Source of the DNA: an uncultured Clostridia bacterium
GTDB lineage: Bacteria; Bacillota; Clostridia; Oscillospirales; Acutalibacteraceae
DNA length: 45,854 nucleotides
Reading direction: 5' to 3'
Assembly (NCBI GenBank): GCA_946186665.1
Contig: CAMHOE010000018.1
Span: 1-45,854 of the forward strand
In this document: positions 9,948 through 45,683 of the stretch, piece by piece
How the letters are laid out: the number at the start of each line of letters is the position of its first letter
Numbering within the stretch: position 1 is the stretch's first letter
Position numbers and translations under genes: made by a program
Notes under the pieces: generated by a model
Seen by the model: only the letters and a program-made list of their open reading frames with translations
Told to the model about the DNA's origin: nothing
The model's database searches: none

Positions 9948-10046
9948 TTTTATATCCGATTTGTAAAGCATACCGATAATATAACAAATAGTATAAACAT
10001 TGAAAAATAATTGATAAATTTATTGTAAAATTTTGTGCAAAAACTA

Positions 10047-10075: not shown

Positions 10076-10171
10076 GTTTAGTGAATATTAGCGATTTAAA
10101 TGTATAATTATCTGCAAAATACAATATGATGCAGAAAAATCCCTAATTTTAAGATCGGAGATGATTTCAAA

Positions 10172-26270: not shown

Positions 26271-28115
26271 ATGAAAACGGTAGCAACTGTAATGCAGTTA
26301 ACACGAAGCCTTCTTATCCTTACTCCCGCTGAGTATGATAAACAAGAGGGCGGTCTTGGCATGGGCAAAAAGAGAACATCTTCAATGCCTACGAACTTCA
26401 GCATTCCGCAGATTTTTGAGCTGAACGATTCATTGAAGGAGCGTCCGTTTGAAAAATCGGAAGAGCTTGCAGCATTTGTAAAACGCTGCGCCGAAAGCGT
26501 AAGTATGGAGCTTGGTGACCTCTTTATATGTATTGAGGATGAAGATGTACTTATAACAAAAGAGTATAAGCACGCTGTTGAAAACAAGGAAAAGCTTCTC
26601 CTCGTATTTGCAAAGGTAGAAGCAGAAGCCGTACTCCATCAGGAAGTAGACAAGTACACTATCCTGAATTTTGAGTATGGTCAGCAGTATGGTAAGTCAA
26701 ACAAGTCTGAGGATGTATCAGCTTCACTGTTTGCGATGAATACCGGTATGCTTACCGATATACGTGCAAATTTCTCTGCGGCAGGACTCAGAATAGTTAA
26801 AATAGTTCCGCCTATTGCCGGTATGCTCTATACAGCAAAATCAGACGTGAACTCCGCAACAAGGGCTGTTGCCGTTATCAGCATGGATTTTGCCGCTACA
26901 CGTCTGGTCGTACTTCACAATGGTGCGCCTGTGTTCCAGCAGTCCTTCTCAAGTGTTCTTGAGGATATAGCAGAGCTGTTCATGCTTGAATTCGGTATCA
27001 GTAAGCTCGGCGCTATTGACCTTATCCGTCAGGAGGGCCTTGGAGTATGTAACAAGTGCAACTCCGCAACAACAAGAAAACAGACAATGACAATGCTCGA
27101 CAACGCAGCAGGTGAGATACTCAGAAACCTCAGAATGGTAATCTCAACAATGCGTCTTGATATCGACCAGATCGTTCTCTGTGATGCTCTGGCAAAGATC
27201 CCGAATATCTCGGCATACTGCCGTCAGGTGGGTCTTACAGCTCCTATGGAGAACATCATGAACCTGTTCTCCGGCGGCTCACTTCCGCCTACAGTTACAG
27301 AGTCAGCTAAGGAAAGAGGCTTTGCTCCTGTATCATTCATTACCCTCAACGGCGTTCTTACAATGCCTGTCAACGAGGCTAACCTCCTTCAGGGCGAAAC
27401 AAATATTATGGCGGCTCTTTCATCAGAGGGCAGCAATAAGCTCGGTAACTTCGCAGCAAGTGTTCTTGGTGTTGTTGCAGCAGTATGGGTGCTTGGTGTA
27501 TCAGGCTGGTGGTTTGCTCTTGAAATGCAGAAGAACAACGATGCCAATGAGCTTCAGAACCCCAACTTTACAAGAGCTCAGCAGCTTATAGACGATGAAG
27601 CGAAATATTCTGCTCTTGTTGAAAATGTGGCTGTGGATCTGGAAACACTCCCCCAGACAGAGAATAAATCCTCTGTAGTAGTTAACCATGTTTATGATGA
27701 GATAGTCAAGAAGGCACAGAACTTTGACAGTATCGCAGTTGTCAAAAACAATGTGGAGGGTGTGGATACTATTACAGCTAATGTAAGCTTTGCTGTAAAG
27801 GATTATAACTCCTTCGTTGACCTGAAAAACTCTATAGCAGACGCAGGCTTCTTCAATGTATCTGAGCAGCTGACAGTTTCTAAGAGAACAAGAGGCGACA
27901 GCACAAATCTTGTAAGCTATTACCAGTGTGAGATGAACTTCACTGTTTCCGAAAGTGGTATGGAGCAGGCTGCTCTTACTGATTCTGAGCTTGCGGCTCG
28001 TGATGCAAGACTCCAGAAGGCAGTTGAAGAGGGTTCTGATTCTAAGGACAAGGGTAAGACGAGCGAATCATCAAGCAGCAGCAAGTCTGAGGAAAGCTCA
28101 GCTGTGAAAGCCTGA
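26271..28115 (+). CDS. pilMN: PilM-PilN fusion, pilus alignment complex (614 aa)
   Basis: Residues 1 to ~360 resemble the actin-like PilM (MNTGMLTDIRANFSAAGL, AVAVISMDFAATRLVVLHNG, FQQSFSSVLEDIAELF), although the usual N-terminal DIGS phosphate loop is not recognisable. NEANLLQG (about 365-372) looks like the PilN motif INLLP that binds PilM. A membrane helix at about 394-416, a coiled-coil segment and a ferredoxin-like domain up to ~575 complete PilN. In most bacteria these are two proteins; here the cytoplasmic and membrane partners are covalently joined. The last ~45 residues are Ser/Lys/Glu-rich. Ribosome site is weak. Confidence 0.85.
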   Translation: MKTVATVMQLTRSLLILTPAEYDKQEGGLGMGKKRTSSMPTNFSIPQIFELNDSLKERPFEKSEELAAFVKRCAESVSMELGDLFICIEDEDVLITKEYKHAVENKEKLLLVFAKVEAEAVLHQEVDKYTILNFEYGQQYGKSNKSEDVSASLFAMNTGMLTDIRANFSAAGLRIVKIVPPIAGMLYTAKSDVNSATRAVAVISMDFAATRLVVLHNGAPVFQQSFSSVLEDIAELFMLEFGISKLGAIDLIRQEGLGVCNKCNSATTRKQTMTMLDNAAGEILRNLRMVISTMRLDIDQIVLCDALAKIPNISAYCRQVGLTAPMENIMNLFSGGSLPPTVTESAKERGFAPVSFITLNGVLTMPVNEANLLQGETNIMAALSSEGSNKLGNFAASVLGVVAAVWVLGVSGWWFALEMQKNNDANELQNPNFTRAQQLIDDEAKYSALVENVAVDLETLPQTENKSSVVVNHVYDEIVKKAQNFDSIAVVKNNVEGVDTITANVSFAVKDYNSFVDLKNSIADAGFFNVSEQLTVSKRTRGDSTNLVSYYQCEMNFTVSESGMEQAALTDSELAARDARLQKAVEEGSDSKDKGKTSESSSSSKSEESSAVKA

Positions 28116-28147: not shown

Positions 28148-28921
28148 ATGGATAATAAGAAACAGTTTAAGGTTCCGGGTTTTCTTTTGGCTATTATCGC
28201 CATACTGGTAGTCTGCATTATATTCATATTTGTAGTACAGGTTCCCTTCTCCCAGAATTATGACAAATATCAGGAAGATCATGCTTCCGCTGTAAGCCAG
28301 ATAAGCTTATATAACGATTATCTTTCAAGAGCTGATGAGGTTCAGAAGAGTATAGATAAGATGAAGAGTGAGTATGAGCTGAAGAGCGCTAACCTCTTTG
28401 CTAATGCTACTACATCTCCTGATGATATCAGAAAAGTGCTCACAAGACTTAACTATGATATCCTTGCTCTTTCTATCAATACCGGTGTGCCGGATGCTCA
28501 GGGCAGAACAACGGTTGCAGGCGGTCTGCTCTATTCTACATCAGTAAACTACAAGTTCGTTTGTACTGAGGAAAACATTTCTCAGACACTGAACTACCTT
28601 GAGCTTGAAGCTGACAGTGCTTACTACATAGACAGCATCAGTATTACTAACTATGTTGACCCTGCGGCAGAAGCAGCAGCAGAGGCTGCGGATGAGTCCG
28701 GCGAAGGCTCCGGAGAAGAATCCGGCGAAGGCTCAAAGTCAGAGACTTCAAAGAAGCAGGCTTCTGATGATGCAGAGATCATTGATATCAGCGGAGTTTC
28801 AGGTGTAAACAAAACAGCTGACGCAAGATATGAAGTTACCTTCAACATGAGTCTCTATTACTTCGTAGCTCCTGAAGAGGAATCAGTAGAGGAGACAGTT
28901 GAGGAAAGCTCTGAAGCATAA
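28148..28921 (+). CDS. pilO: PilO-like pilus assembly protein (257 aa)
   Basis: Short cytoplasmic start, one membrane helix (about residues 11-32), a coiled coil (about 40-85) and a ferredoxin-like domain (about 90-170 plus 220-245), interrupted by an acidic Gly/Ser/Glu insert (about 177-205). Position between PilN and the remaining machinery and the topology fit PilO, the partner of PilN in the inner-membrane alignment complex. GGAGGT precedes the ATG. It sits 32 bases behind pilMN. Confidence 0.8.
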   Translation: MDNKKQFKVPGFLLAIIAILVVCIIFIFVVQVPFSQNYDKYQEDHASAVSQISLYNDYLSRADEVQKSIDKMKSEYELKSANLFANATTSPDDIRKVLTRLNYDILALSINTGVPDAQGRTTVAGGLLYSTSVNYKFVCTEENISQTLNYLELEADSAYYIDSISITNYVDPAAEAAAEAADESGEGSGEESGEGSKSETSKKQASDDAEIIDISGVSGVNKTADARYEVTFNMSLYYFVAPEEESVEETVEESSEA

Positions 28922-28947: not shown

Positions 28948-29895
28948 ATGCAGCCATTAAATTATCTGACAACAACAAGCGGAATAATATGGACAGCCGC
29001 TTGTGTCCCGATGGGAGTATTTCTCATGTGGCTTGCATACTTTATAATCAACAGGATACCCGCAAGCTGGCTCTGCGATTACGGCGAAACACCGTCGGCG
29101 GAGCTGCTTTCGGGGAAACGTGTAAGGTATGTCGGCTCAGGGATATTGATGTCCGTTATCACAGTGTTATGTCTGGTATGTTGCAGATTACAGTTCAATA
29201 AAGGCTATGATATCTATTTTACGGTCTTTGGACTTATCATTGTCATAGCACTGATGATAGCAGTGTGCGATATAAAATATACCATCATTCCTGACCAGTT
29301 TACTATAGCTGTTGCGCTTATAGGTATATTCATAAGTGTGTATGATATAGTAAGAGGTTATGGGCTGCTTCATACAAGCTGGTGGTCACCTCTTGCAGGT
29401 GCGGTCATGGGCGGAGGAGCAATGCTCCTTATAGACTTTATAGGTATGATCATCTACAAAAAAACAGGTATGGGCTTCGGCGATGTAAAGCTTTTTGCCG
29501 CAGTCGGTATCATAACCGGTTTTCCCGGAACACTCTATGCCTTTGCTATATCCCTTGTAACAGGTCTTATAGGCTTTGCAGTGATCATAGTAGCTTCAAA
29601 ATTCTTCGGCGGCGTGGATGCAGATGCGGCTGAGGGTGTTGCAGAAGCTCAGACAGAAGAGACGGGAGTAGCTGCTGTTACTGACAGCAAGCCGGAAGAA
29701 GTTCCCTCCGCTGCGGAGATAACTGCCGATGTGGCAGAAGCCAATGAAGAAGCTCAGGACCAGACAGAGGATGAGGGTAATGATGGTGCGTATCTTGCTT
29801 TTGGTCCCTATATCGCTATCGCACTCATAGTTTATTTATCACTTTACGATATTGTACAATCAGCAGCGAATCTTTATCTCGGACTTTTTAAGTAA
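28948..29895 (+). CDS. pilD: Prepilin leader peptidase PilD (315 aa)
   Basis: Aspartyl peptidase (A24) that cuts prepilins after the leader Gly. Both catalytic motifs are present: Asp in AVCDIKYTIIPD (about residue 110) and GFGDVK (about residues 174-179). Seven to eight membrane helices. The N-terminal part lacks the CxxC pairs of proteobacterial enzymes that also methylate, so N-methylation is doubtful. An acidic insert of about 50 residues (about 232-285, Ala/Glu-rich) precedes the last helix and is unusual. Confidence 0.92.
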   Translation: MQPLNYLTTTSGIIWTAACVPMGVFLMWLAYFIINRIPASWLCDYGETPSAELLSGKRVRYVGSGILMSVITVLCLVCCRLQFNKGYDIYFTVFGLIIVIALMIAVCDIKYTIIPDQFTIAVALIGIFISVYDIVRGYGLLHTSWWSPLAGAVMGGGAMLLIDFIGMIIYKKTGMGFGDVKLFAAVGIITGFPGTLYAFAISLVTGLIGFAVIIVASKFFGGVDADAAEGVAEAQTEETGVAAVTDSKPEEVPSAAEITADVAEANEEAQDQTEDEGNDGAYLAFGPYIAIALIVYLSLYDIVQSAANLYLGLFK

Positions 29896-29912: not shown

Positions 29913-31613
29913 ATGAAAGCCGGTAACTTGAAAATCGGACAAATACTTATAAATTCCGGTGATATCACCGAAGAGCAGCTCGAAGAGGTGCTCCAGAAGC
30001 AGAGGGAATCCGAAAATAAAAAACGTATTGCCGACCTTCTCATCGAGGATAAGATCGTTACCGAGCAGCAGGTTTGCCGAGCTCTTGAAAAGCAGCTCTT
30101 TATGCCGTATGTGGATCTGGATACTATAACGATCCCTGAAGAGCTGAGCGGCATTATCCCTGAGGAAATGGCAACGAAAAATATGGTTATCCCCATAGAG
30201 CAGGACGGACGTTTTCTTACCGTTGCGATAGGCGACCCGCTTAACTATAAAGGTATAAAGGATCTGTCTATCACAACAAAAATGAAGATAATGCCTGTTA
30301 TCGCCGAACCTTCAAAGATATCCGGAAAGATACGTGAAATGTATGCGGCTCAGAAGGCTATTGACGACGCTAAGGAGTTCCTTGAATCCAAAGGCGGCAA
30401 GACTCAGGCTCAGCTCGATGCGGAAGAGGCGGCAAAGGATGCTAATGCAAACGACCAGCCTATTATCCGCTTCGTAAACAATATGATAGAAGAAGCAATC
30501 TTTGCAAAATGCTCCGATATTCATATAGAGCCTATGGAAAAATGTCTGAGGATAAGGTTCCGTATCGACGGTAAGCTCCAGATATATATGGAGACAAGCC
30601 CGGAGCTTATACCTTCGGTAACATCCCGTATAAAATTTATCGGCAACATGAATATTGCTGAAAAACGTATACCACAGGACGGTCGTATCAACTACCGTGT
30701 CGGTGGAAAAGAAATAGACTTCCGTATCTCGGTTCTTCCCAGCGTTTTCGGTGAGAAGATCGTTATGCGTATTACGACCTCTCTGGGCATGGAGCTTAAA
30801 AAGGAAAATATAGGCTTCCTTCCGGAGAACCTTGAAAAATTCAATCATCTTGTAAAAAGTAACAGAGGCATTATACTTGTAACGGGTGCTACAGGTTCCG
30901 GTAAATCAACAACGCTTTACACCGCTCTTAACGAGGTAAAGGGTGAGGATATAAACATCATCACCGTTGAGGACCCTGTCGAAATGCTCCAGACAGGTAT
31001 CACTCAGGTACAGACAAATGATAAGGCGGGTCTTACATTCGCCTCCGCTCTTCGTAGTATTCTTCGTCAGGACCCCGACATCATAATGGTCGGTGAGATC
31101 CGTGACGGTGAAACGGCCGGCATCGCCGTACAGGCAGCTATTACCGGTCACTTGGTTCTTTCTACGCTCCATACCTACGACGCACCAAGCTCGGTTGCTC
31201 GTCTGGTAGATATGGGTATCGAACCGTACATGGTGTCCTCCGCACTGTTGGGCATCATCGCTCAGAAGCTTGCACGACGTCTCTGCAATGACTGTAAGGA
31301 AGCTTACAGCCCTGACCAGAATGAGAGGATCGCTCTTAACCTTGATCAGAATGAAGAGATAACTCTCTACCGCAAGTGCGGCTGTGAGAAGTGCAACAAA
31401 AAGGGCTATAAGGGACGTATTGCCGTTCATGAGATCATGCTCCTGAGTTCACCCCTTAAGCGTGCGATAACTGAGGGTATGAGTACAGATGACCTCAGAG
31501 AGCTTGCTGTTAAGGAAGGCATGATCCCGATGAAGGAAAACGTAAGAATAGACGTTCTTAAGGGACTTACATCTTATGAGGAATACGTTGATATGACGAT
31601 CAATAATGACTAA
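29913..31613 (+). CDS. pilB: Type IV pilus assembly ATPase PilB (566 aa)
   Basis: Hexameric ATPase that drives pilus extension. The N-terminal T2SSE_N/MshEN domain begins KIGQILINSGDITEEQLEEVL. Then come Walker A GATGSGKST (residues 325-333), Asp box EDPVEMLQTGITQVQ, Walker B DPDIIMVGEIRDGETA, His box HLVLSTLHTYDA, and the tetracysteine zinc motif CNDC...CGCEKC near residues 456-492. The start is 18 bases behind pilD with AAAGGAG. Confidence 0.96.
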   Translation: MKAGNLKIGQILINSGDITEEQLEEVLQKQRESENKKRIADLLIEDKIVTEQQVCRALEKQLFMPYVDLDTITIPEELSGIIPEEMATKNMVIPIEQDGRFLTVAIGDPLNYKGIKDLSITTKMKIMPVIAEPSKISGKIREMYAAQKAIDDAKEFLESKGGKTQAQLDAEEAAKDANANDQPIIRFVNNMIEEAIFAKCSDIHIEPMEKCLRIRFRIDGKLQIYMETSPELIPSVTSRIKFIGNMNIAEKRIPQDGRINYRVGGKEIDFRISVLPSVFGEKIVMRITTSLGMELKKENIGFLPENLEKFNHLVKSNRGIILVTGATGSGKSTTLYTALNEVKGEDINIITVEDPVEMLQTGITQVQTNDKAGLTFASALRSILRQDPDIIMVGEIRDGETAGIAVQAAITGHLVLSTLHTYDAPSSVARLVDMGIEPYMVSSALLGIIAQKLARRLCNDCKEAYSPDQNERIALNLDQNEEITLYRKCGCEKCNKKGYKGRIAVHEIMLLSSPLKRAITEGMSTDDLRELAVKEGMIPMKENVRIDVLKGLTSYEEYVDMTINND

Positions 31614-31706: not shown

Positions 31707-32753
31707 GTGGATTTTTACAGCCTTGTAAAAGAAGCCGTTACGAAGGGTGCGTCCGACGTACATATCGCTTCGGGTAACCATCCTGCATACCGTCTGCACG
31801 GTAATGTGTTCTTTACAAATGATCCCGCTCTTAATGAAGCGGAAGTTACAGCAATCATAAAAGCAGTACTTAACAAATCAAGATTTGAGACCTTCCTCCA
31901 GACAGGTGAGGCCGATGCCGCAGTTGAGATAGGTGAGTGCGGACGTTTCAGAGCTAATGCTTTCAGACAGCGTAATGGTACAGCTCTTGTACTTCGTGTT
32001 ATCAACAGCGTTGTTCCTGAACTTTCCACCCTCAGCCTGCCTAACTCCATCAGAAAAACACTTGACCTGAATTCCGGTCTGGTGCTGATGTGCGGACCTA
32101 CCGGTTCCGGTAAATCAACAACACTTGCGGCTCTTATCAATGAGATCAACAAATATAAGAGCAAGCACGTTATAACTATCGAGGACCCTGTTGAGTTCCT
32201 GCATACACCTAAGCGCTGCATTATCAACCAGAGAGAGATAGGCCTTGACAGCCGTTCTTACCCTATGGCTCTTCGTGCTGCGATGCGTGAGGACCCGGAT
32301 ATTATCCTCGTAGGTGAGATGCGTGACCGTGAGTCTATCCAGATCGCACTGACAGCAACTGAGACAGGTCACTTGGTTTTCTCCACAGTACATACAGAGG
32401 GTGCAGCAAAGACTATCGACCGTCTTGTTGATATCTTCCCTCCGGATCAGCAGCAGCAGATCAGAGTTCAGCTTTCTACCTCACTGAAGGCGGTTATCTC
32501 GCAGAGACTTCTTCCGAGAGCATCAGGCGGACGAGTTGCGGCTTTTGAGATCATGTTCGTAACCACCGCTATCAGTAACCTTATCCGTGAGAATAAGGTT
32601 GCAAATATCCAGCAGTCTATCCAGCTTGGTCAGCAGTACGGTATGATCACGATGAGCAAGAGTATCGATAATCTCCTTGCTCAGGGACTTATCACCGAGC
32701 AGATAGCTAAGGCTTGGAACTTTGATATAGGCGATACTGACGCAAGAAGATAA
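31707..32753 (+). CDS. pilT: Type IV pilus retraction ATPase PilT (348 aa)
   Basis: Retraction ATPase: N-terminal ASDVHIASGNHPAYRLHG, Walker A GPTGSGKST (residues 130-138), Asp box EDPVEFLH, Walker B DPDIILVGEMRD, His box GHLVFSTVHTEGA, and the PilT-specific AIRNLIRE-like stretch AISNLIRENKVANI. The start is GTG, as no ATG fits the family N-terminus (DFYSLVKEAV). Presence of PilT means the pili can probably be pulled back, giving twitching or reeling-in of bound substrate. Confidence 0.95.
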   Translation: MDFYSLVKEAVTKGASDVHIASGNHPAYRLHGNVFFTNDPALNEAEVTAIIKAVLNKSRFETFLQTGEADAAVEIGECGRFRANAFRQRNGTALVLRVINSVVPELSTLSLPNSIRKTLDLNSGLVLMCGPTGSGKSTTLAALINEINKYKSKHVITIEDPVEFLHTPKRCIINQREIGLDSRSYPMALRAAMREDPDIILVGEMRDRESIQIALTATETGHLVFSTVHTEGAAKTIDRLVDIFPPDQQQQIRVQLSTSLKAVISQRLLPRASGGRVAAFEIMFVTTAISNLIRENKVANIQQSIQLGQQYGMITMSKSIDNLLAQGLITEQIAKAWNFDIGDTDARR

Positions 32754-32767
32754 GGGAGTGAACAGTA

Positions 32768-34018
32768 TTGAAGTATAAATATGTGGCAATGAACGCCAGG
32801 AACCAGAAAAAGGAAGGTGCTATTGAAGCAGAGACCCAGAATGATGCAGTAGCACAGCTTCGTCAGAAAGGTCTTGTCGTTCAGGATATAAGCGCACTTG
32901 GTAGCGACAGTGATGAACCTACCAGTATATGGCAGATGGATCTTGGCGGAGATATCCACACTAAAAAGATCCAGGCTAAAAAGCTTCTTATGATACTGAG
33001 CCAGCTCGGTATGATGATGAAAGCAGGTATTAACCTCTCGCTGACAATGGAAATTATGATCCAGTCTGAAAAGGATGTCAGCATGAAAAAGATCCTGAAA
33101 GAGATCAATGAAAGCCTCTATACAGGTTTTACTCTTTCTCAGGCTATGAGAAACTTCGCAGGCTTCCCACCGATATATATCAGTATCATAGAAGCCGGTG
33201 AGGCAAACGGTCGTCTTGATGAGGCGTTTGAACAGTGTGCTCAGATATGTAAGAAGGATATCGCTCTCTCCGGTAAGATCAGAAGCGCATTGATGTATCC
33301 TCTCTTCCTTATTGTGCTCGTTATTGCCGTTGTTATCATCCTCTGCGTGTTCGTTCTTCCGACATTCGCAGGTGTGTACGACTCCTTCGGCGGCGACCTG
33401 CCGGGACTGACAGTCGCTATGATGGGCTTGTCAGACTTCCTTATCGGATACTGGTGGCTGCTTATTATCGTTACGGTCGGTGTTGTTGTAGGTCTGAGAA
33501 CACTGAAAAAGACAAATGCAGATTTCCAGATGTGGTGGGCAGAAATGCAGCTCAAGATACCGCTCGTTGGTCCTATCATCCGTCAGAACTCACTTGCTCG
33601 TTTCTGCCGATTGATGTCAACGCTTACGGATTCAGGTATCCCGATCCATAAGGCAATGGCTCTTTCAAGAGATGCTGTACCGAACAAGTATGTTCAGGAA
33701 AAAGTACAGGCTGTACTTGATGATGTACAGATCGGTGTATCCATCAATGCGGCTATGGCTAAGCATCCGGTATTTGACCCGATCCTCGTTTCCATGATCC
33801 GTGTCGGTGAGGAATCCGGTATGCTTGGTGACTCACTTCACAAGATGGCTGACCTCTTCGAAGATCAGGCAGATGAGTCCACAACAAAGCTCACAGACAT
33901 GATGACACCTATCATGACGGTTGTTATCGGTGTAGTTGTTGGTACACTCGTTGTTGCAATGATCCTCCCGATGTTCGGTATGTACGGTCTGGTATCAGAC
34001 GCATCAAGCACATCATGA
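32768..34018 (+). CDS. pilC: Pilus platform protein PilC (416 aa)
   Basis: Inner-membrane platform of the T2SSF family on which pilins are assembled. It begins KYKYVAMNARNQKKEGAIEA as family members do, with two T2SSF repeats (about residues 78-200 and 283-403) and membrane helices at about 178-200, 222-245 and 380-403. Conserved segments are LMMMLSQLGMMMKAGINL-like in repeat 1 and FCRLMSTLTDSGIPIHKAM in repeat 2. The start is TTG (32768) preceded by AAGGGAG, 14 bases after pilT. Confidence 0.95.
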   Translation: MKYKYVAMNARNQKKEGAIEAETQNDAVAQLRQKGLVVQDISALGSDSDEPTSIWQMDLGGDIHTKKIQAKKLLMILSQLGMMMKAGINLSLTMEIMIQSEKDVSMKKILKEINESLYTGFTLSQAMRNFAGFPPIYISIIEAGEANGRLDEAFEQCAQICKKDIALSGKIRSALMYPLFLIVLVIAVVIILCVFVLPTFAGVYDSFGGDLPGLTVAMMGLSDFLIGYWWLLIIVTVGVVVGLRTLKKTNADFQMWWAEMQLKIPLVGPIIRQNSLARFCRLMSTLTDSGIPIHKAMALSRDAVPNKYVQEKVQAVLDDVQIGVSINAAMAKHPVFDPILVSMIRVGEESGMLGDSLHKMADLFEDQADESTTKLTDMMTPIMTVVIGVVVGTLVVAMILPMFGMYGLVSDASSTS

Positions 34019-34293: not shown

Positions 34294-34321
34294 TTGAATA
34301 GTTTTCTGTTTATAGTATAAT
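34294..34321 (+). promoter_or_regulatory. Promoter of the minor pilin/adhesin unit
   Basis: -35 TTGAAT (34294-34299), 16-bp spacer, -10 TATAAT (34316-34321). The upstream intergenic DNA holds ATGAACAA at 34211-34218 and 34242-34249. Confidence 0.6.
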
Positions 34322-34395
34322 GTAAATATACAACTATAAGTGGCGGAATGTGTATTTGCGGACTTGTACATTCTATTAAAAAGGAGGAGTTGTGA

Positions 34396-34944
34396 ATGAA
34401 GAAACGATTACGGCACAACAAAGTAAGGCTAAGGTCCAAAAAGGGTATGTCTCTTGTGGAGCTGCTGGTGGCAGTAACTATTATTGTACTGGTATTCGGC
34501 GGAACTGTCGGTGCAATGGCTAACGGTTATTCCAGCACTTTGTATAACGCACAAAAGACTATCGACGCTGCGGAAGGTGTTTCACTCAATGATATTATCT
34601 TTGAGGGAATAGAGAACCAGTACTTTGAAAGCGCGGATGAATGCAACAAGTATTTCTTTGGTACAGGCGGAACCAAAAACCCGAATACAGATCCTACAAA
34701 CTCTATCCATGAGGCGGCAAAGTCAGTAGACAGCGGTGTGAGGTATGTTACCTCAGCTGATTTTCCGAGCACTGACAGTTCTATTGTATTGCAGTACACT
34801 ATAGTAACGGACTCACGCAGTAATGTGAGTACAGGACTTGGCTCAAAGGAAGTAAGCGGAGTAACAATAAAAACAGCCGTAAGGACTGTAGAAGGAATCG
34901 TTACTAATACATCTTTTGTTCCGTATGGCCTTGATGAGGAATGA
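34396..34944 (+). CDS. Minor prepilin (182 aa)
   Basis: Basic leader ending KKG, then MSLVELLVAVTIIVLVFGG with Glu5: a class III pseudopilin. The head (residues about 45-182) is Asn/Ser/Thr-rich with FFGTGGTKNPNTDPTN. GGAGG precedes the ATG. It is first in a three-gene unit of prepilin-like proteins, the usual order for a tip-priming complex (compare GspI/J/K and PilV/W/X). Confidence 0.85.
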   Translation: MKKRLRHNKVRLRSKKGMSLVELLVAVTIIVLVFGGTVGAMANGYSSTLYNAQKTIDAAEGVSLNDIIFEGIENQYFESADECNKYFFGTGGTKNPNTDPTNSIHEAAKSVDSGVRYVTSADFPSTDSSIVLQYTIVTDSRSNVSTGLGSKEVSGVTIKTAVRTVEGIVTNTSFVPYGLDEE

Positions 34945-34948
34945 TTGG

Positions 34949-35581
34949 ATGGTGAATGAAATGAAAAAGATCAGATCGCGTAAGGGCTTTACGCTTGTAG
35001 AGCTTATAGTTACAGTAGCAATTCTCAGTATTACTTCAAGTCTGTTGGTTGCGATCGTTGCCAATTCAATCAATAACTACTCCAAGGCATCTATAACTGC
35101 GACTGAGCAGGATGTTGCTTCACAGATAGAGTCAGATATCCTGTTCTTTGCTGTGAGAGCAAACGGCGCTGAAGGAGTGGATACCGCTACTCCGGGCGTT
35201 TCAGTACCGGCAGCTGATGAGAGTGCCTATTATGTGTACATTGAAGACGGCAAAGTCAAAACAATATTCAGTGATGTAGAGGTAGTCGGTGAGTCTGCTA
35301 TAGTAACTGACTATGTGTACGATGGAGTGGAAAAGATCACATTCCAGCTGAAAAAGCAAAAGACAGCAAAGGATGACACATCGTCCAAAAAAAGATACGG
35401 ATTTCTTGAATATGAGATAGTAATGAAGCACGGCTATACTATTAAAGGCTCTGTGGTAATGGGTAACATTCCGGCAGATGCTACGATGGATGTTATTGAC
35501 ACGGACTCGTTCGTTGATTCGAACTATCCGGTAGTTCTTGAAACGAGCGCATCAGGTAAAGGTCTGAAGTTTACCAGATGA
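34949..35581 (+). CDS. Minor prepilin (210 aa)
   Basis: Leader MVNEMKKIRSRKG, then FTLVELIVTVAILSITSSLL with Glu5. The head of ~160 residues is rich in beta-prone sequence (YYVYIEDGKVKTIFSD, YGFLEYEIVMKHGYTIKG) and resembles PilW/GspJ-like proteins in size. GAGGA (34936-34940) favours ATG 34949; ATG 34961 would give a shorter leader (MKKIRSRKG) and is nearly as good. It begins four bases after the previous stop. Confidence 0.82.
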   Translation: MVNEMKKIRSRKGFTLVELIVTVAILSITSSLLVAIVANSINNYSKASITATEQDVASQIESDILFFAVRANGAEGVDTATPGVSVPAADESAYYVYIEDGKVKTIFSDVEVVGESAIVTDYVYDGVEKITFQLKKQKTAKDDTSSKKRYGFLEYEIVMKHGYTIKGSVVMGNIPADATMDVIDTDSFVDSNYPVVLETSASGKGLKFTR

Positions 35582-35610
35582 TCAATTATTAGTGGAAAGG
35601 AGTTGCTGAT

Positions 35611-38600
35611 ATGCAAAGATTGAAAAGCAAAAACAGTAAAAAAGGTTTTTCGCTTGCTGTTGCAATGGGTGTGGGTATCTTTCTGATACTTATTGCGTCA
35701 TCGCTTATGTTTATAGCGATGAACAGTGTATCCAACACAAGCACTAACCTGAATTATCGTCAGGCGTATCTGAATGTAAAAAGTGCTCTGGATTATGCTA
35801 CATCGTATTATTCAAATAATGTTGATGACTATTCCGATATAGGCACAGAGTATATGACGATGAATGATAAAGCCGGCGGTTCGACAGCTAACGGCGCTAC
35901 GATATCTACAGATGAGACTAAGCTCAATGAAGCTATGACCTACGTAATAGCAGAGTATATCGAAGCCAACGATTCAGAACCGGCTGCGCTGAGTCTTTCC
36001 GGATATGCAAAATACAGCGATTCATTCGGAAACAAAACTAGCAGCGTCAAGCTGAAGGTCGTATACACTATAGGTTCGATAGGTCCTAACAGACTTACAA
36101 CAATGGTCGTTGACCGTGAGTTCAAAAGCGGGGGCGGCGGTGAAGAAACTATCACACTGAATGTTAAGCAGCCTGAAGACATGGGCTTCCAGATGAGTTA
36201 CTACGTCTGGACATACAGCGATACCGCAAACGCTTACAGCGGTCACACCTCAGGTGAAGACAGCTATTCATATAATCCTGAGGTAGGCAGACTTAATGAA
36301 TCAACACTTGAAGATAATATCGTTTATCCTAACGGTAAGTGGAATACAAGAGATGACGATACCAGAGGTCCGCAGGCTATCATGGCTGATGCCGGCGATG
36401 GCTGGTACACCGGTAACTATGTTATCAAGAGCGGACGTGTTCCGTGGTTCAATATAATCTTCGCACAGAAGGGTTCTATACTCGGTCGTGATTGTTCAAA
36501 TATATACAACTCACAGACAAACGAGATGTTCCACCTCTGGTACCTCAACCCGAACGACAAGAATATTTATTTCGAGTTCCTTGACAAGCATTATCTTGCA
36601 GAAGGTCACTGGACACACTACTACACCGGCAAGAGATGGAACGGCTATGAAGGACTTGAAGATACTATTCTCGTTTATGTAAAGAATATCAAGACAACTG
36701 TACATTTCAGAATACAGGATGTTGACAGCACAAGCATCGCTCCTACAATAAGCGCTCCTTATCTTACTGTTACAGGTGCTTCAAATTTCTCATCTGAGAG
36801 CTACACAGCCGGCGGAGCTACCGTGACAGGTACAAGCATGACATATGAAGGCTGCGGCTGGTGGTCTGCTGTTGTTGACGCAGGCGGCTCGATGAGTGTT
36901 GGAGTATCGGCAAACGGATCATCATATTCAGCAGCCGGTATTTCACCTAACTCCAACAATGAGGTATGGCTTGTTGCAAAGCCCGGAAGCAGCAACATGA
37001 ATGTACATCAGTCAGAGCAGAATTCACTTATTGATCTTGGCGTGGATCTGAACTCTTATGTAACTGTACACGCAAAGGTTGCTGATTACACAAAGAAGGC
37101 TGCACCCGTCCTTTCATATAAGGATGAGAGCCTTAACTCCTCAACAGAGAGAATTAACCTCCTTAAAACAGTTATCAACGCAAAGCAGATAGAAAAGACA
37201 AACTATACTTCTGAAAGCTATGCAGTTCTTGAAGCTGCTATGCAGGCAGCGCTCAGGGATCTTGCTGATGATGATTTCATCAGAAATCAGGTAACAGATC
37301 CTGATACGATATCTGAAAAGATAAAGAAAGCAGACGAGGCGTACAGAGCGCATATCGATGCTATTAATACAGCAATAGCAAATCTTGTTCCCGGAACAGC
37401 TACACCGGCTGAGATCGATGCTCTTCAGAGACTTGTAAATGACGGTGACACAGCAGTAGCTGAGCAGGAAGCAAGCAGTAAGTACGATTATGAAGCATAC
37501 ATAAAGTTCACAAAGGACGACGGTCCCTATAAGACAGCAAAGGCTGCTCTTGCAGATACCAGCTCACTTGTATCCACAAGAGCTCAGGAACTTACAAGAG
37601 ATCTTAACGATGCGCTCACAGAGCTTTATGCCGGCATACTTATGAAGGATATTCTTAAGGGCAACATCGACAAAGCAAGAGATCTTGTTGACAGCGAAAG
37701 CTATGAAGCAAGCTACAGAGATATCCTCAGACTTGAGCTTGATGAGACAGACCCTGAAAGTGCGATAAGCGTTTATAACGGCACAGATGTTTCTCAGGCA
37801 GTTATCGATGCAGCAAATGACAGACTGGAAGCAAAGATCACTAATGTCATTAATCACCCCTATAGCGCAGGCGGCGATACTACGAACCTTGAAACAGCTA
37901 TGTCAACAGCAAGCAATGCGCTTGATTCGGCTGTGAAGGATCCGATGGACGGTCACGAGCTGTCAAGTGTTGAAAAGAAGAACTATACAGATGATACATA
38001 TAATGCTCTTAAGTCAAAGTATGACGAAATAGCAGCAATGGATCTTTCTACAAAGTCTCAGTCTCAGATCGACGCTCTTACAGAAGAGTTGTATGAGAAG
38101 ATTTACGCATTCAATGTGATTAAGCCTATTGGTACTAACAGTGAGCTTAGTTACAACAAGAAGATCAAGGTGTTCGTATATCCTGATGGATTTGAAGGTG
38201 ACTTTGAGCTTTCTCAGTATATAGGCGGCGCAGAGTCTACGACTCTTGCATCTTCTGCACTTACTGATGATGGTCTCAACGGCTACAAGTATATCGAGAT
38301 CGACAAGGGCGTATTTGATGGTATCGTTATCAATGCGTTTAACACATCAGGTCTGGAAAAGACTTCCGGCCTTGTTGATATCACAAGTGTATCCGGAAAC
38401 AACCTTGTATTCGTAATAGATGCTGAAGGCAATATCAGACAGACAACATTTACAACAATCTACGGCGGATTTACAGGCGGCGGCAATACATTCGGTCAGC
38501 CTCTGTCTGAGGATGGTTCTCCTGACGGAAAGCTTGTTTACGCTGTATATGAAAACTACTATTATGTTCTCAGATTCCTTACTGATGAAACAAAGAAAAT

Positions 38601-41600
38601 CATCGTTAACAGCAAGGTAACACTGGTAGGCGGTGAGGAGAGAGTATATGCTTACGATTTCGGTAAGCTTCCGGCAGGTGACTATGTTGCTCAGATATCC
38701 TCCGATATTGAAACAGCAGAGATCGTCAATGCTGATAACATTTACCCGAAATATACTGAAGCACCATCTCCCACAGAGCCTGTAACACCGGCAGCTTATA
38801 CTTCAGGTGATTACGAGATCGACCTCCTTGCTGATACAGATGCAAGCTACATTTATTTCACCGACTCAAGATGGGACAGCATATACTGGGGCGACAATAC
38901 ATATGCTTACTTCTTCGATGACAGTGAGAACACAGTAGGTCCTGCATGGCCTGGTATGGCGATGACAAAAGCAAAGGCTGACAGCTCCGGCAACATGAGA
39001 TATAAGATCAAACCTCCGGCAGGCGCAACTAAGGTCATCTTCAATAACAACAATATCAGCCAGCAGTCTGCAACAAAGACATTTAAGCTCGGATGTGGTT
39101 ACTCTAAGGGTACATATCAGGGCGAACTGAACCACAAGAAAACATTTGAAGTAAATGAATATACAGTTGCAACAAACGGTGGAGAAATCGAAGGCACTGT
39201 ATATGAAAGCGAGTACATTCATATCACAAACAACATGGGTTGGGATAACCTCCACATCTGGTTCATAGATGCTGAGGGTCACGACTCAGGTGCCGGCGCA
39301 CCGGGCTTCTACCTCGAGTATGAAGGACAGAATGCAGAGGGTAAGGATGTATATAAGATCCAGCCTCCTGTAGGCGCAGTCAAGTTCATAGTCGGCGATG
39401 GTACAGGTGCAGACGGCGGCGATAAGACAATGAGCGATGCTACAGTTTATCTTGGTGAGACATACTACACCAATGACAACATAACATGGCTCAGAGCAAG
39501 CGAGGTAGTTACACCTCCGGATGTTCCGGATGTACCGGATGTTCCCGATATTCCCGGCGGCGGCGGAACAACAATATATCCCGACGACGGCTCAAGCCCG
39601 GCTGGCGGTGCAACAGACGTTGATGCTTCTAATATAAGCATGGCCTATGTCGGCGGCAGCAAAGTAAGAGTTCAGAACAGAGGTTACTACGAAATCTATG
39701 GCGTAGGTGCAAAGACAAATGACTACGGTTACCCGATGAATGACGGCACCTATATGTACGGCGGTGACCGTATCAACATGAATTCCGGCGGACGTCAGGG
39801 TGCAGCTAAGCTTACACCTTATTATGACTGGTATGAATTCAAGCTCCCTGTTTCTAAGGAAGGTTATTATAACTTCCAGCTTAAGGGCATGAACAAGGAT
39901 AATGAAGGCGTAAGCAACGTTGAGGTCAAGAAGGCTTATGGTGATGTCTGGGTAGAGCAGGTAAACAATAATATCAACACAGGATATTATCGTAACTTCA
40001 ACCTTCTTACTTTCGATCCGGAAGCAACACAGACTTCAAAGACCCTTACTGTTTACTTCAGACAGACAGACGGTTGGTCAAATGTCAAGCTTGCAGCATA
40101 TGGTGCTGAAAACGCAGGTACAATGGAACCGACCGGAAGACTTACAAGAGGTTCCAACAGCAATATTATCTACTTCGATAATATTTCAAAGAACACACCT
40201 TTCCTTACTTTCTCCGCAGATTATACTTATGTAACTGCTGATGGCACAACAGTAACAGAATCAAAGAACTTTAAAACAAGCTTACAGGGCGGCGACTACA
40301 TACTGTTTGATCCTAACGCAAGTGAGGGTTACGGACAGTGGGTAAGCTTCGTATCCGATCAGGAAATGCTGAAGCGTGCAGCTAAGAACCTGATGAGCAT
40401 GTACTACGGCAGAGTTATAATTTCCAAGTATACTGATGATGGTGAAGTTGAGAGCTATGGAGACAATACGTATCGCTTCTCAGAGAGACTGAAGAATATG
40501 TTCCTTGATTACGCTTCATCAACAACAAGTAACGGTGTTACATACTATCAGCTCAAGGATGTTAAGTCTGCATTCCCGGATGAAGCAGACGCGTTTGCAA
40601 GAGCAAGTTATATCAATGCAACACTTGTAAAGTATACTGAATTGTTTGATACTATGAGCATGGCAAGAATGTATGTTGCTGCACCTCTTAAGGATTCAGA
40701 CCTGAGCGCATATCATCTTACCAATCTTATTCATGGCGATGGCGGCGGTTTCTATCCTGAGTATCTCTCAAGAACAAATGAGTTCAGAAGATATTCAGAG
40801 GCTACTTCAAAAGCAGTCAAGAAGCGTCTTGCACAGGCTGAGCAGGTTTACCTGTCAGATTCAGGTTCTGCGTCAGATACCGATGGTCATGTATTTACAA
40901 TTGACAGTGCGAAGAGAGCACTTGAAAGAGCTATGAATGGTCTTGAGGTTGAGAGTGAAGGCTCGATTGGTATTTGTCTCTATGACGCACAGAAGAAAGT
41001 AGCTAATGGTTCCAAGTTCAAGCTCAGATACAAAGAAAGTGCGACAGCAGCTGGCTATACAGAAGTACAAGTAACTGAGTATAACCGTGAGAGATATCCG
41101 ATATACTTCGTTAAGACAAGCGATACAATGAAGAGTATCTATGACGTACAGTTCATTGAAATTCCTCTGGTAGGCGCTCATGCCGGCGAAGAAGTTCTTC
41201 TTGGTTCTCCGAGAAGAGTAATGACTGAAGATGATCAGTGGGTTTATGTAGACATCTCTACAGGTACTCCTTACTGGTCCCCGAACAGCTCCTCTGACTA
41301 CAGAGAAATCACAACAGATTTGTTTGTTGAAGAGGATGATGAAGAGCCTGTTAAGTACACTATGAAGAAGTGGAAAAAGTCTGACGGTACTGAGAGTGAT
41401 GATTATCAGCCGATGACATTGCTTTTCGTATACGATACAACTATTGAGTGTTCTGTAGGTAACTATGTCATAAAGGCAGGCGCTTACTACTTCACTAATT
41501 CTGATACTGAGGAAGTTGGCTCTGTTATTTCCGGCGGTACGATCAATCTCTTCAGTTCCGAAGCAAGAAGCTACTTTACTGACCCTGAAAACTATGGCGA

Positions 41601-42180
41601 ATATGTCGAAAACGCTGTAACAGGTGATTCACTTGGTTGGAATGACAGCGGAGACTTCAGAACAGGTACTAATACCTCAGCGGGACGTAATGTAAACTTT
41701 GAGATGAACAGCGGTTCACTTACAAAGTATGCTCCTTACTATTCTTATTCTTCAACAGACGGTCTGTATTTCAGATGGAGTTCTGCTGAGCCTCTTTACG
41801 CAACAACTACTGTTAAGCTCTATGCTGATGAGTACAGGTTTGCTTTCTCTGGTACTCTTGACGGTACTAAGGATAATACAAGAGGCACACACTTCTATCT
41901 CTTTAGTAATGATTCTGCTGCTGATGAAATGATAGTAGACTTCTTTACGGACGTTCCTGTCAAGTATTATGACTCTATGGGTAAGAAACATGAGTTTGTA
42001 ATCTATGAAGGTAAGTACAAGATTGAGAAGGAAGACCCGGCACAAGACTTTATTGCTGACTTCTACAATGAAACTTACTGGAAGAGTTATGAGCATGTAA
42101 CATACATCGGCAGAGGCGGAAGTTCCTTCAGCACTGACGGTGCAACCACAGGTTCCCTTACACATGGTGCATATGGCTGA
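35611..42180 (+). CDS. Giant prepilin-like tip adhesin with starch-binding-type modules (2189 aa)
   Basis: The N-terminus is a PilX/GspK-like prepilin: KKG then FSLAVAMGVGIFLILIASSL, with Val rather than Glu at position 5, as in tip pseudopilins. Behind it is an exceptional exported region of over 2100 residues. Visible parts are FIVAR-like helical repeats (about 513-590 and 786-820), two modules resembling CBM26 (about 1078-1165 with YFTDSRWDS, WPGMAMTK, KVIFNNNN; about 1200-1295 with NNMGWDNLHIWF), a Pro-Asp linker (about 1300-1312) and a long, unassigned beta-rich C-terminal half. Earlier segments (about 200-440) have similar Trp/Gly-rich patterns. AAAGGAG precedes the ATG. I infer a pilus-tip adhesin for starch-like glucans. 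Confidence 0.82.
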   Translation: MQRLKSKNSKKGFSLAVAMGVGIFLILIASSLMFIAMNSVSNTSTNLNYRQAYLNVKSALDYATSYYSNNVDDYSDIGTEYMTMNDKAGGSTANGATISTDETKLNEAMTYVIAEYIEANDSEPAALSLSGYAKYSDSFGNKTSSVKLKVVYTIGSIGPNRLTTMVVDREFKSGGGGEETITLNVKQPEDMGFQMSYYVWTYSDTANAYSGHTSGEDSYSYNPEVGRLNESTLEDNIVYPNGKWNTRDDDTRGPQAIMADAGDGWYTGNYVIKSGRVPWFNIIFAQKGSILGRDCSNIYNSQTNEMFHLWYLNPNDKNIYFEFLDKHYLAEGHWTHYYTGKRWNGYEGLEDTILVYVKNIKTTVHFRIQDVDSTSIAPTISAPYLTVTGASNFSSESYTAGGATVTGTSMTYEGCGWWSAVVDAGGSMSVGVSANGSSYSAAGISPNSNNEVWLVAKPGSSNMNVHQSEQNSLIDLGVDLNSYVTVHAKVADYTKKAAPVLSYKDESLNSSTERINLLKTVINAKQIEKTNYTSESYAVLEAAMQAALRDLADDDFIRNQVTDPDTISEKIKKADEAYRAHIDAINTAIANLVPGTATPAEIDALQRLVNDGDTAVAEQEASSKYDYEAYIKFTKDDGPYKTAKAALADTSSLVSTRAQELTRDLNDALTELYAGILMKDILKGNIDKARDLVDSESYEASYRDILRLELDETDPESAISVYNGTDVSQAVIDAANDRLEAKITNVINHPYSAGGDTTNLETAMSTASNALDSAVKDPMDGHELSSVEKKNYTDDTYNALKSKYDEIAAMDLSTKSQSQIDALTEELYEKIYAFNVIKPIGTNSELSYNKKIKVFVYPDGFEGDFELSQYIGGAESTTLASSALTDDGLNGYKYIEIDKGVFDGIVINAFNTSGLEKTSGLVDITSVSGNNLVFVIDAEGNIRQTTFTTIYGGFTGGGNTFGQPLSEDGSPDGKLVYAVYENYYYVLRFLTDETKKIIVNSKVTLVGGEERVYAYDFGKLPAGDYVAQISSDIETAEIVNADNIYPKYTEAPSPTEPVTPAAYTSGDYEIDLLADTDASYIYFTDSRWDSIYWGDNTYAYFFDDSENTVGPAWPGMAMTKAKADSSGNMRYKIKPPAGATKVIFNNNNISQQSATKTFKLGCGYSKGTYQGELNHKKTFEVNEYTVATNGGEIEGTVYESEYIHITNNMGWDNLHIWFIDAEGHDSGAGAPGFYLEYEGQNAEGKDVYKIQPPVGAVKFIVGDGTGADGGDKTMSDATVYLGETYYTNDNITWLRASEVVTPPDVPDVPDVPDIPGGGGTTIYPDDGSSPAGGATDVDASNISMAYVGGSKVRVQNRGYYEIYGVGAKTNDYGYPMNDGTYMYGGDRINMNSGGRQGAAKLTPYYDWYEFKLPVSKEGYYNFQLKGMNKDNEGVSNVEVKKAYGDVWVEQVNNNINTGYYRNFNLLTFDPEATQTSKTLTVYFRQTDGWSNVKLAAYGAENAGTMEPTGRLTRGSNSNIIYFDNISKNTPFLTFSADYTYVTADGTTVTESKNFKTSLQGGDYILFDPNASEGYGQWVSFVSDQEMLKRAAKNLMSMYYGRVIISKYTDDGEVESYGDNTYRFSERLKNMFLDYASSTTSNGVTYYQLKDVKSAFPDEADAFARASYINATLVKYTELFDTMSMARMYVAAPLKDSDLSAYHLTNLIHGDGGGFYPEYLSRTNEFRRYSEATSKAVKKRLAQAEQVYLSDSGSASDTDGHVFTIDSAKRALERAMNGLEVESEGSIGICLYDAQKKVANGSKFKLRYKESATAAGYTEVQVTEYNRERYPIYFVKTSDTMKSIYDVQFIEIPLVGAHAGEEVLLGSPRRVMTEDDQWVYVDISTGTPYWSPNSSSDYREITTDLFVEEDDEEPVKYTMKKWKKSDGTESDDYQPMTLLFVYDTTIECSVGNYVIKAGAYYFTNSDTEEVGSVISGGTINLFSSEARSYFTDPENYGEYVENAVTGDSLGWNDSGDFRTGTNTSAGRNVNFEMNSGSLTKYAPYYSYSSTDGLYFRWSSAEPLYATTTVKLYADEYRFAFSGTLDGTKDNTRGTHFYLFSNDSAADEMIVDFFTDVPVKYYDSMGKKHEFVIYEGKYKIEKEDPAQDFIADFYNETYWKSYEHVTYIGRGGSSFSTDGATTGSLTHGAYG

Positions 42181-43244: not shown

Positions 43245-45683
43245 TCAGTCGTTATCCTTTTTTCTGCTTGCGATAAAGAATACTGCAACTGATGCAAGAC
43301 CGATCATTATGATCACAACTGCAACAACAAAGGTGCTGTCTGCTGTGTTTACAACGCCTGTTGAAGTTGTGGTGGTCGTAGTGGTCGTTGTCTTGGGAGC
43401 AGAGCTTACAGATGAAGCTGTGCTTGTTGTAGAGTCAGACTTTGTTGAAGAGGTTACGCTTGTGTCCTTAGAAGTATCAGTGCTGCCTTCGGAAGTATCA
43501 GTGCTGCTGTCTTTTGATGTATCCTTGCTTGTGTCTGTGGATGTATCCTTAGACTCGTCTTTGCTCTCGTCTTTGCTCTCATCTGAGCTTTCGTCAGAGC
43601 TTTCATCTGAGCTTTCGTCTTTGCTCTCGTCAGAGCTTTCGTCAGAACTCTCGTCTGAGCTTTCATCAGAGGGTTCGGGGTCTACTTCTGCATTGAGGTC
43701 TACCCACTTTGTGCCGTCATAGAGCATCTGGTCTGTGTAAGCCATTGTAAGACCGTCCATCATTGCTCCGGGTATCTGGTCGCCGTCACCGTTATTGAAG
43801 ATGACCATGATGTGCTCACAGCTTGCGAACTGCTCGGGAAGCTCATAGCTGAAATAGCCGTTTCCGAAGTCTGTCATCTTGACACCCGGCCATTCGCCGT
43901 TTGTTATGGTCTCAGCACCGCTCTCGTCATATACGTATACGTTAACGGTTGACCAGTTTATCTCGCTGTTATCGAATATGATTCCGCCGCCCTCAAGAGC
44001 AGGAAGCTCTCTTTCTGCAAGCTTGCGGTAGCCTGTATCAAATGAAACAGTCTCTCCGTCAGGTGTTGTACCATAAAGTGTGATGGCAATGTATGATTCA
44101 GGAGCAAACTCGCTGCCGATAGTTATAACGTCGCCGTCACTGAAGCTTCTGGAGTCCTCGTAATTCTCATAATCTTTGGATGTTCCATATATCATGTAGT
44201 AAGTATCAGTTACGTTGATAGCATGGAGTGTGATGTCGATAGTGTCTGTAAATGTTGTACCGGACTCAGGCTCTGCATAGACCTTGCTTGTGTAGGGTGA
44301 ATTGTAGACAACTGCGATACCGCTCTCGCCTACAGTACCTGAAATTGTTGTTTCAGTAACAACAAATTCGTTGCCGGTAACTTCGTCATAGTATGTGCCT
44401 GCCGGAACATAGCCGCCTGCGTTTTCTACAGAAACCTCACCGCTGCCGCTGCCGCATACGATAACTGCGCCGCCGCCTGCACGGGTAACTACTGAGTTGT
44501 TGTCGGTAACTGCATAGCTCTCAGCTGTGCCGATCATTGCATTATGGAAGTGGTTGACAGCTGCAATCTCAGGAGCTCTGAAGTGAGTGCTGCCCTTAAC
44601 GCCTATTCTGATGCTGTCTCTTGCGGTTGCGAAGGGACGTGAAAGGTAAAGCGAGGTCGAGTCTGCCTTTGCTGTAACGAGCGCATATGCACGGTCGATT
44701 ATATTCTGCTCGATGCCGTTTGACTCCAGACCCTCTTCCTTAGAATATGTATCGTGGCTCTCGCCCCAGTATACTATTTTATTTGCAGAGATGCCCTTCT
44801 GGTCCCAGTTGCCGGTCTTTTCAGGAGCCTTGCCTTTGTTGAATGACTTCAGAACAGTGTCGCTGTAGGAGCTGTCTGTTACTGACATATAGTTGGTATA
44901 CTCAGCCATAAGATCCTCGCCGCCGCCGTCTACAGGGCTTGTAAGGATCTCGCCGTAGTTGTAAAGACCTGAATTTGTAACTGCCGGCCAGAAATCACAA
45001 TCCTCGCTCGGAAGTGCGATATGCTTTGCAGCGTCCCAACGGATACCGTCAACGCCCAGACTCTTAAGGTCCTGAACGTAGTCTGCAACTACCTGTTGTA
45101 CATAAGGGTCCTCAGAGTTAAGGTCAGGCATTCCGATATCGCCGTGAGTTACCTGATGACGGTTAGCATAGCTTACTACCTCGCCCTCATTATGCCAGTA
45201 TTTATCAGCTTTCAGATCTTCCTGAATGTTGTCGTGGTTACCTGCAAGGTGGTTTGCAACAACGTCAACTATGACATTGATGCCGTAGACTTCAGCCTGC
45301 TCACAGAGGGCAGCAAGCTCTTCGCGTGTGCCAAGATCTCCTTCTTCTGCTACAGTAAAGGAAAGGGGCTGATACAGCCAGTACCAAGGACCTGTGCTTG
45401 CAGCGGGCTGTACAGGAGAAACCTGTATAGAGGTGAAGCCTGCTTCAGCGATAGCATCAAGCTCATTAGCTATGTCGTTATAAGACCAGTCAAAGCAGTG
45501 AAGTATAACACCGTCCTGAATGTTATCTGCAAGACCATAGCCGGCTGCGGGTGCAGCACTTGCGTTTGTGGAAGCAACAGCTCCCATACCTGCAAAGGCT
45601 CCGAGAGCAAGTGAAGCGGTCAGTGTGAGGGCAACAGTCTTTTTACTCAGACCGCGCCTTACGGACTTAGTTTTGTTTTCCAT
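43245..45683 (-). CDS. Surface-anchored alpha-amylase, GH13 subfamily 28-like, with CBM26-like module (812 aa)
   Basis: Signal peptide (about 1-43), then a GH13 domain (about 48-430) that hydrolyses alpha-1,4 bonds in starch. Region I is DVVANH (140-145), nucleophile Asp217 in GIRWDAAKH, acid Glu245 in YGEIL, and Asp311 in WGESHDTY; ESHD instead of ENHD is typical of the AmyE-like subfamily 28. A CBM26-like module (about 575-660; WSTVNVYVYDES, EWPGVKMTDFGNGYFSYELP in pieces, VIFNNGDG) follows. Then comes a DESS/DESK/DTSK repeat linker, a Thr run, one membrane helix (about 781-803) and the basic tail RKKDND. A sortase site is not clear (VVNTADST where xPxTG would be). AGGAGAG precedes the ATG. 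Confidence 0.95.
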   Translation of the reverse strand: MENKTKSVRRGLSKKTVALTLTASLALGAFAGMGAVASTNASAAPAAGYGLADNIQDGVILHCFDWSYNDIANELDAIAEAGFTSIQVSPVQPAASTGPWYWLYQPLSFTVAEEGDLGTREELAALCEQAEVYGINVIVDVVANHLAGNHDNIQEDLKADKYWHNEGEVVSYANRHQVTHGDIGMPDLNSEDPYVQQVVADYVQDLKSLGVDGIRWDAAKHIALPSEDCDFWPAVTNSGLYNYGEILTSPVDGGGEDLMAEYTNYMSVTDSSYSDTVLKSFNKGKAPEKTGNWDQKGISANKIVYWGESHDTYSKEEGLESNGIEQNIIDRAYALVTAKADSTSLYLSRPFATARDSIRIGVKGSTHFRAPEIAAVNHFHNAMIGTAESYAVTDNNSVVTRAGGGAVIVCGSGSGEVSVENAGGYVPAGTYYDEVTGNEFVVTETTISGTVGESGIAVVYNSPYTSKVYAEPESGTTFTDTIDITLHAINVTDTYYMIYGTSKDYENYEDSRSFSDGDVITIGSEFAPESYIAITLYGTTPDGETVSFDTGYRKLAERELPALEGGGIIFDNSEINWSTVNVYVYDESGAETITNGEWPGVKMTDFGNGYFSYELPEQFASCEHIMVIFNNGDGDQIPGAMMDGLTMAYTDQMLYDGTKWVDLNAEVDPEPSDESSDESSDESSDESKDESSDESSDESSDESKDESKDESKDTSTDTSKDTSKDSSTDTSEGSTDTSKDTSVTSSTKSDSTTSTASSVSSAPKTTTTTTTTTSTGVVNTADSTFVVAVVIIMIGLASVAVFFIASRKKDND

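Follow-up and report, generated by a model that had tools for sequence, protein, structure and literature searches.

A predicted 2189-residue type IV prepilin with CBM26-type modules at a pilus locus of a gut bacterium of the Ruminococcus group

Type IV pilins carrying additional modules are known in 264 architectures, some of them with carbohydrate-binding domains, and tip exposure of such modules is expected (PMC8179133; this and the other papers below are cited from excerpts of their text). In the PilB and PilC pilins of Streptococcus sanguinis, adhesive modules are grafted onto an N-terminal pilin module, and the tip pseudopilins GspK and PilX (GspK in the same paper) bear an extra domain on a pilin and have a proposed place at the tip with the I and J subunits. 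Here we describe a protein that would resemble both, a 240-kDa putative prepilin (hereafter the giant) encoded in a stretch of 45,854 nucleotides (contig CAMHOE010000018.1; hereafter the window) from the 2.55-Mb draft genome of a gut-dwelling member of the Ruminococcus group. Whereas the two S. sanguinis pilins have one extra module each (vWA and lectin), the giant and its relatives would be K-type (GspK/PilX-type) prepilins of 2000–2900 residues with modules of carbohydrate-binding module family 26 (CBM26).

Sas6 and Sas20 of the Ruminococcus bromii amylosome have CBM26-type folds in common with the modules of the giant, but Sas20 has a dockerin and no prepilin, whereas the giant shows the reverse, and the words pili and pilus occur nowhere in the text of the Sas20 paper (PMC9112005). 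Pfam gave the giant neither a dockerin nor a cohesin match at E values up to 5. Through the pilins CbpC, GP25 and Pil3 of Ruminococcus albus and Ruminococcus flavefaciens, type IV pili have been tied to polysaccharide adhesion, as we propose here; there, however, the target is cellulose, the pilin of R. flavefaciens has a mass of 14 kDa, and the excerpts describe no giant bearing a carbohydrate-binding module (PMC3672088). Pseudoruminococcus massiliensis, a resistant-starch degrader related to R. bromii, has type IV pilus genes that include a 'PilX', and its pili have been suggested to bind food particles, but no starch-binding module is described in the excerpts and CBM26 has no occurrence in the main text (PMC8726730). 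Our search of the open-licence literature found no publication that describes a CBM26-bearing pilin or type IV pili adhering to starch. The initial annotation of this window, made from the letters alone, had called such a mechanism undescribed; this was too strong in general, since carbohydrate-binding modular pilins are in print (PMC8179133), and it stands insofar as none with CBM26 or a starch target was found. We found no CBM26-bearing K-type prepilin in that literature.

Prepilin features and CBM26 modules of the giant

At its N-terminus the giant has a basic leader followed by Gly12 and a hydrophobic helix (KKG/FSLAVAMG), in which position 5 is valine. In the full-length set of 29 proteins, comprising the window copy and 28 relatives (two of which, L035 and L036, are closely related), glutamate at position 5 (Glu5) occurs in none, no acidic residue is present in the first 24 mature positions of any, and the glycine and helix of the class III signal are kept in all. 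The absence of Glu5 had been recognized in the initial annotation, as had the order of two ordinary minor prepilins followed by the giant; the two minor prepilins both have Glu5 and exceed the cut-offs of N_methyl and IV_pilin_GFxxxE, and the open reading frame (ORF) of the giant is intact (Table 1). The AlphaFold2 model of residues 1–520 has a single long helix and a beta-sheet, a pilin-like arrangement, with a mean predicted local distance difference test (pLDDT) score of 58. The class III signal and the pilin-like predicted fold support the assignment of the giant as a type IV prepilin; against this assignment, the Pfam scan gave no N_methyl match, the N_methyl model itself resting on Glu5. 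The VIA list for the N-terminal model contained no pilin or GspK row, but beta domains filled that list, so it is no evidence. GspK, a protein of about 300 residues, also has no Glu5. The giant may be called a tip-type subunit by analogy only, because it lacks Glu5, stands last in an I-J-K-like trio, and has shorter K-like prepilins as parallels in the type IV pilus clusters of related genera.

Two CBM26 segments had been proposed in the body of the protein. Module 1 matches Pfam CBM26 (PF16738) at residues 1093–1153 (E = 2.2e-9; 37.7 bits against a cut-off of 28.1) and retains the aromatic, WPG, NN and Q pattern of solved amylase CBM26s, residues that we take to line the binding site; WPG is kept in nine of nine first-type modules of relatives (rows sorted by hand). 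Module 2 is not called by Pfam alone, which gives one CBM26 stretch in the giant, and was found by an iterated profile built in this study (E = 4e-22). The motifs YFTDSRWDS, WPGMAMTK and VIFNN, which had been spread over the two modules, all lie in module 1. In the second-position modules of relatives, the WPG aromatic is Phe or Trp in seven of eight. The structure comparison suggested at the outset bore the proposal out, in that the best VIA matches of the predicted folds were R. bromii Sas20 for module 1 and Sas6 for module 2. When the module region was compared with the PDB as a single sequence, only chance matches came back (homospermidine synthase and one other), whereas an alignment-based PDB search succeeded. 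The CBM26 identity of module 1 is supported by these comparisons, and starch binding is predicted. The tandem appears weaker than first claimed, because module 2 has lost the canonical aromatic in the window genome. The signal as a whole is more than chance, because the protein is conserved in the genus and the iterated profile found a second CBM26 copy.

Occurrence in relatives and coupling to pilus genes

The giant or fragments of it are present in 35 of 37 genomes of the same genus, the window genome included; a 36th genome (G035) matches through CBM26 in a different protein, and both genomes without the giant are drafts of less than 82% completeness. The genus-level search matched none of 23 genomes of other families. 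Within the family, the N-terminal profile matches 19 of 300 genomes (9 of 135 genera), and three further genera have giants of 1920–2039 residues: that of g254 has three CBM26 stretches (50.8 bits), that of g40 scores 12.2 bits, below the cut-off, and that of g241 has no CBM26 match. The remaining family matches are shorter K-like prepilins, two of which sit at contig ends. A giant beyond the family was not seen in the order search, which matched 6 of 394 genomes (an even draw from a larger group), all of the same family. The arm probably grew on a pre-existing K-type prepilin.

Within the genus, PilT identity is 94–99%, whereas the best-segment identity of the giant is 29–40% across 28 full-length copies. 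The minor prepilins (34396–35581, + strand) have 30–53% identity at 22 loci each, a divergence about as rapid as that of the giant. Because PilT is near-invariant while the giant and minor prepilins change fast, selection by the substrate may act at the tip, which this pattern suggests and does not prove. In one genome (G005) the giant is broken into two ORFs (L051:5065–7917 and 8077–12045, − strand), and at L044:6874–8140 (+ strand) PilC is present as two overlapping ORFs; each is an assembly error or a real break. Other large proteins, with four to six CBM26-like stretches each, lie at L055:4053–11393 (−), L081:2320–5325 (−) and L080:1516–7158 (+).

The alignment breaks in many relatives at residues ~1080–1334, a segment that, by these alignments, is a variable cassette. 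Pfam CBM26 is found at E ≤0.05 in 14 of 32 cassettes; among the full-length proteins, CBM26 is clear in 8 of 29, with two or three strong copies by iterated profiles, and probable in five more (L060, L061, L063, L067 and L058). A first profile-profile run gave 80–98% for 8 of 11 relative groups, but its profile included some of their own rows; in the leave-out run L041 kept 95% and the L060/L061/L063/L067 group 88%, whereas groups C, D, J and L064 went down to 44–61% and groups A, B, F, G, H and I to at most 17%. The idea that the cassette is CBM26 in all relatives was rejected, since most groups fell once their own rows were left out. The Pfam score of L063, 12.9 bits, counts against the 88% group. 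L058 (group J, 55%) scores 28.1 bits against the cut-off of 28.1 and alone reached it in single Pfam scans of ten relatives' cassettes, a sample that excluded the best CBM26 relatives.

The order PilC-I-J-giant is present in 16 of the 29 full-length cases, and I-J-giant in three others (L041, L058 and L064), in which the available stretch includes no PilC. The displaced giants (L052, L054, L056, L060, L061, L063, L065, L066, L067 and L068) belong to one group of the genus; for L068 there is only 0.9 kb upstream, and the pilus cluster of the same genome is on another contig (L125). Seven pilus clusters of this clade have I and J, of which two end at most 310 bases after J; the five with more than 2.5 kb after J show no giant relative there, and a motif scan after J yielded a single unrelated ORF of 116 codons, in L124. 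PilB was found in 16 of 16 genomes tested. We read these data as one K-type subunit per genome, relocated yet retained.

The pilus gene cluster and the arm

Pilus genes span 24.3–42.2 kb of the window, with the giant last (Table 1). By profile matches the type IVa set is complete for PilB, PilC, PilD, PilT and pilins, PilT having been named in the initial annotation; for PilM, PilN and PilO the matches are weak or come through a homologue. The putative PilM/PilN-like protein itself matches nothing in Pfam or NCBIfam, and its L044 homologue matches PilO at E = 4.4e-4 (20.9 bits, cut-off 22). For the PilO-like candidate, the top Pfam match is TraF_2 (25 bits, at the cut-off), and the Amuc_1100 pilus-like family gives E = 0.0015 (18 bits against 180). 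The best NCBIfam match of PilB, TIGR02538, lies below its cut-off (583 against 676). Because PilB has an MshEN domain and a cyclic dimeric guanosine monophosphate (c-di-GMP) motif, both above cut-off, c-di-GMP may control the assembly of the pilus. The start of the J-like prepilin is an ATG chosen inside a listed ORF with a TTG start at 34916.

Table 1. Features of the pilus locus and of the giant (window positions; residues are those of the giant unless stated)
Feature	Position	Strand	Basis
Prepilin A, major-pilin-like	24308..24796	+	N_methyl 37.3 bits, above cut-off
Prepilin B, major-pilin-like	25305..25811	+	N_methyl 37.8 bits, above cut-off
PilM/PilN-like assembly protein (putative)	26271..28115	+	L044 homologue resembles PilO; one membrane segment by eye
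PilO-like protein (putative, weak)	28148..28921	+	Weak family matches; equivalent place in relatives
PilD prepilin peptidase	28948..29895	+	Peptidase_A24 57.4 bits
PilB assembly ATPase, MshEN domain	29913..31613	+	T2SSE 437 bits, MshEN 66 bits
PilT retraction ATPase	31707..32753	+	TIGR01420 439.2 bits, cut-off 319.1
PilC platform protein	32768..34018	+	T2SSF 198 bits
Minor prepilin, I-like, Glu5 present	34396..34944	+	N_methyl 24.0 bits, cut-off 21.2
Minor prepilin, J-like, Glu5 present	34961..35581	+	N_methyl 30.3 bits, cut-off 21.2
Giant, putative K-type prepilin, 2189 residues	35611..42180	+	ORF intact
Predicted pilin module, residues ~13–155, no Glu5	35647..36075	+	AlphaFold2 model of 1–520; conservation
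Beta domain D1, residues 176–325	36136..36585	+	CBM20/CBM26-like by fold only, low confidence
D2, residues 358–477, conserved			Alpha-glucan-binding CBM26/25/41-like fold, structure only
Putative helical spacer, residues ~510–845	37138..38145	+	Sequence
CBM26 module 1, residues 1077–1164	38839..39102	+	Pfam match, motif pattern, fold
CBM26 module 2, residues 1199–1285, canonical Trp to Ala	39205..39465	+	Iterated profile
PDVPDVPD/GGGG linker	39508..39600	+	Sequence
Conserved C-terminal region, residues 1334–2189	39610..42177	+	Alignment to relatives
D3, residues 1784–1894, conserved			Alpha-glucan-binding CBM26/25/41-like fold, structure only
Alpha-amylase with CBM26	43245..45683	−	CBM26 at its residues 568–640, 73.3 bits

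In the arm of the giant, the model of D1 has pLDDT blocks of 34–69, and the 500–845 profile, which covers the spacer, resembles the partly helical segment 1715–1800 (93%). Profile-profile comparison gave no sequence relation to CBM26 outside the two modules (14 of 14 segments at most 1.6%, D1, D2 and D3 included).

The amylase of the window does carry a module similar to those of the giant, as had been noted, and has by eye an N-terminal signal and a C-terminal membrane segment. A conserved starch-gene neighbourhood was rejected: an amylase match is present in 0 of 19 full-length relatives with at least 3 kb downstream, the other 9 of 28 having too little downstream sequence for the count, and the amylase matches in L078 and L079 are at loci without the giant. 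Elsewhere in the window, a fusion of 1299 residues (10172–14071, + strand) joins a 4-alpha-glucanotransferase (GH77, residues 9–474) to a carbohydrate phosphorylase (588–1298), two maltodextrin steps on one chain.

A candidate starch-gripping pilus tip and its alternatives

We propose, with a probability of about 0.58, that the giant belongs to the GspK/PilX type of tip prepilins and links the pilus to alpha-glucan. PilD would cut the giant after Gly12, and the cleaved protein would assemble with the two minor prepilins, I-like and J-like, into the tip of the pilus, its arm running from the pilin module through D1, D2, the helical spacer, the beta domains and the CBM26 cassette to the C-terminal region. 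The pilus built by PilB and PilC would then offer the arm to starch or another alpha-glucan, which the arm would grip, and retraction by PilT would close the gap between cell and granule, bringing surface amylases within close range. Processing, tip position, glucan binding and retraction under load each go a step beyond gene content. It is also conceivable, if rather doubtful, that the whole arm is an alpha-glucan gripper with four or five folds of the starch-binding type (D1, D2, the two CBM26 modules and D3), in which the conserved D2 and D3 would work in every member and the 1080–1334 cassette would be swapped to tune specificity. On this reading, an entire gut genus would use retractable pili to hunt starch, and the pilus would be the counterpart of the amylosome.

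Several observations weigh against the proposed tip prepilin. In module 2 the sequences APGFYLEY and FIVGDG show that the WPG Trp has become Ala and that the IFNN motif is gone; the lone weak module of L064 also has Ala at the WPG position, and the second-position module of L059 has lost the motif. By leave-out profiles and Pfam, CBM26 is unproven in 16 of the 29 full-length copies, and in 10 of the 29 the giant lies apart from the type IV pilus genes. No Pfam family matched the first 500 residues, and, GspK/PilX profiles having given no match to the window giant in the Pfam scans, PilX_N matched one of eight relatives scanned, weakly (L106; E = 4.6e-4, 20.5 bits against a gathering threshold of 25.5). 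The two structure models are of modest confidence (mean pLDDT 58 and 70), and the pair match to 6b15 returned by Foldseek does not hold up under rigid superposition of the pair (root mean square deviations 14.5 and 14.9). Finally, the folded arm of a 240-kDa protein would have to cross the cell wall.

The size of the arm and the ten displaced genes are also what would be expected of a surface adhesin, one that holds starch against the cell itself and for which the prepilin pathway supplies a membrane anchor or short pseudopilus in place of long retractable pili, and the most extreme multi-domain modular pilin described in the excerpts has 860 residues (PMC8179133). Against this, the I-J-giant order is kept in 19 of 29 cases beside machinery that includes PilT, all five informative clusters of the displaced clade have no other giant relative after J, and PilB is retained in every genome tested; we consider a surface adhesin improbable, though the strongest of the alternatives. 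Slightly less probable still is that the arm has another target, either a protein or a different glycan (glycogen, exopolysaccharide, or a glycan of the cell wall or the host), and that the CBM26-like modules are drifted scaffolds; the amylase-type residue pattern of module 1 and the WPG kept in all nine first-type modules argue against this reading. A type II-like secretion pseudopilus, with the giant as the piston tip exporting amylases, would accommodate a GspK-like subunit and one genome with 17 CBM26 matches, but is very unlikely, as PilT belongs to the retraction family, the window amylase has its own signal and membrane segment, and a piston acting through an outer membrane would be out of place in a cell of this type.

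It is known in few systems how gut bacteria first take hold of insoluble starch. With starch-binding modules on a tip prepilin, pilus retraction would be tied to granule capture, and modular pilins would reach beyond host receptors to food particles as targets. The genus is represented here by metagenome-type assemblies only, and in it the giant would be a clear candidate adhesin.

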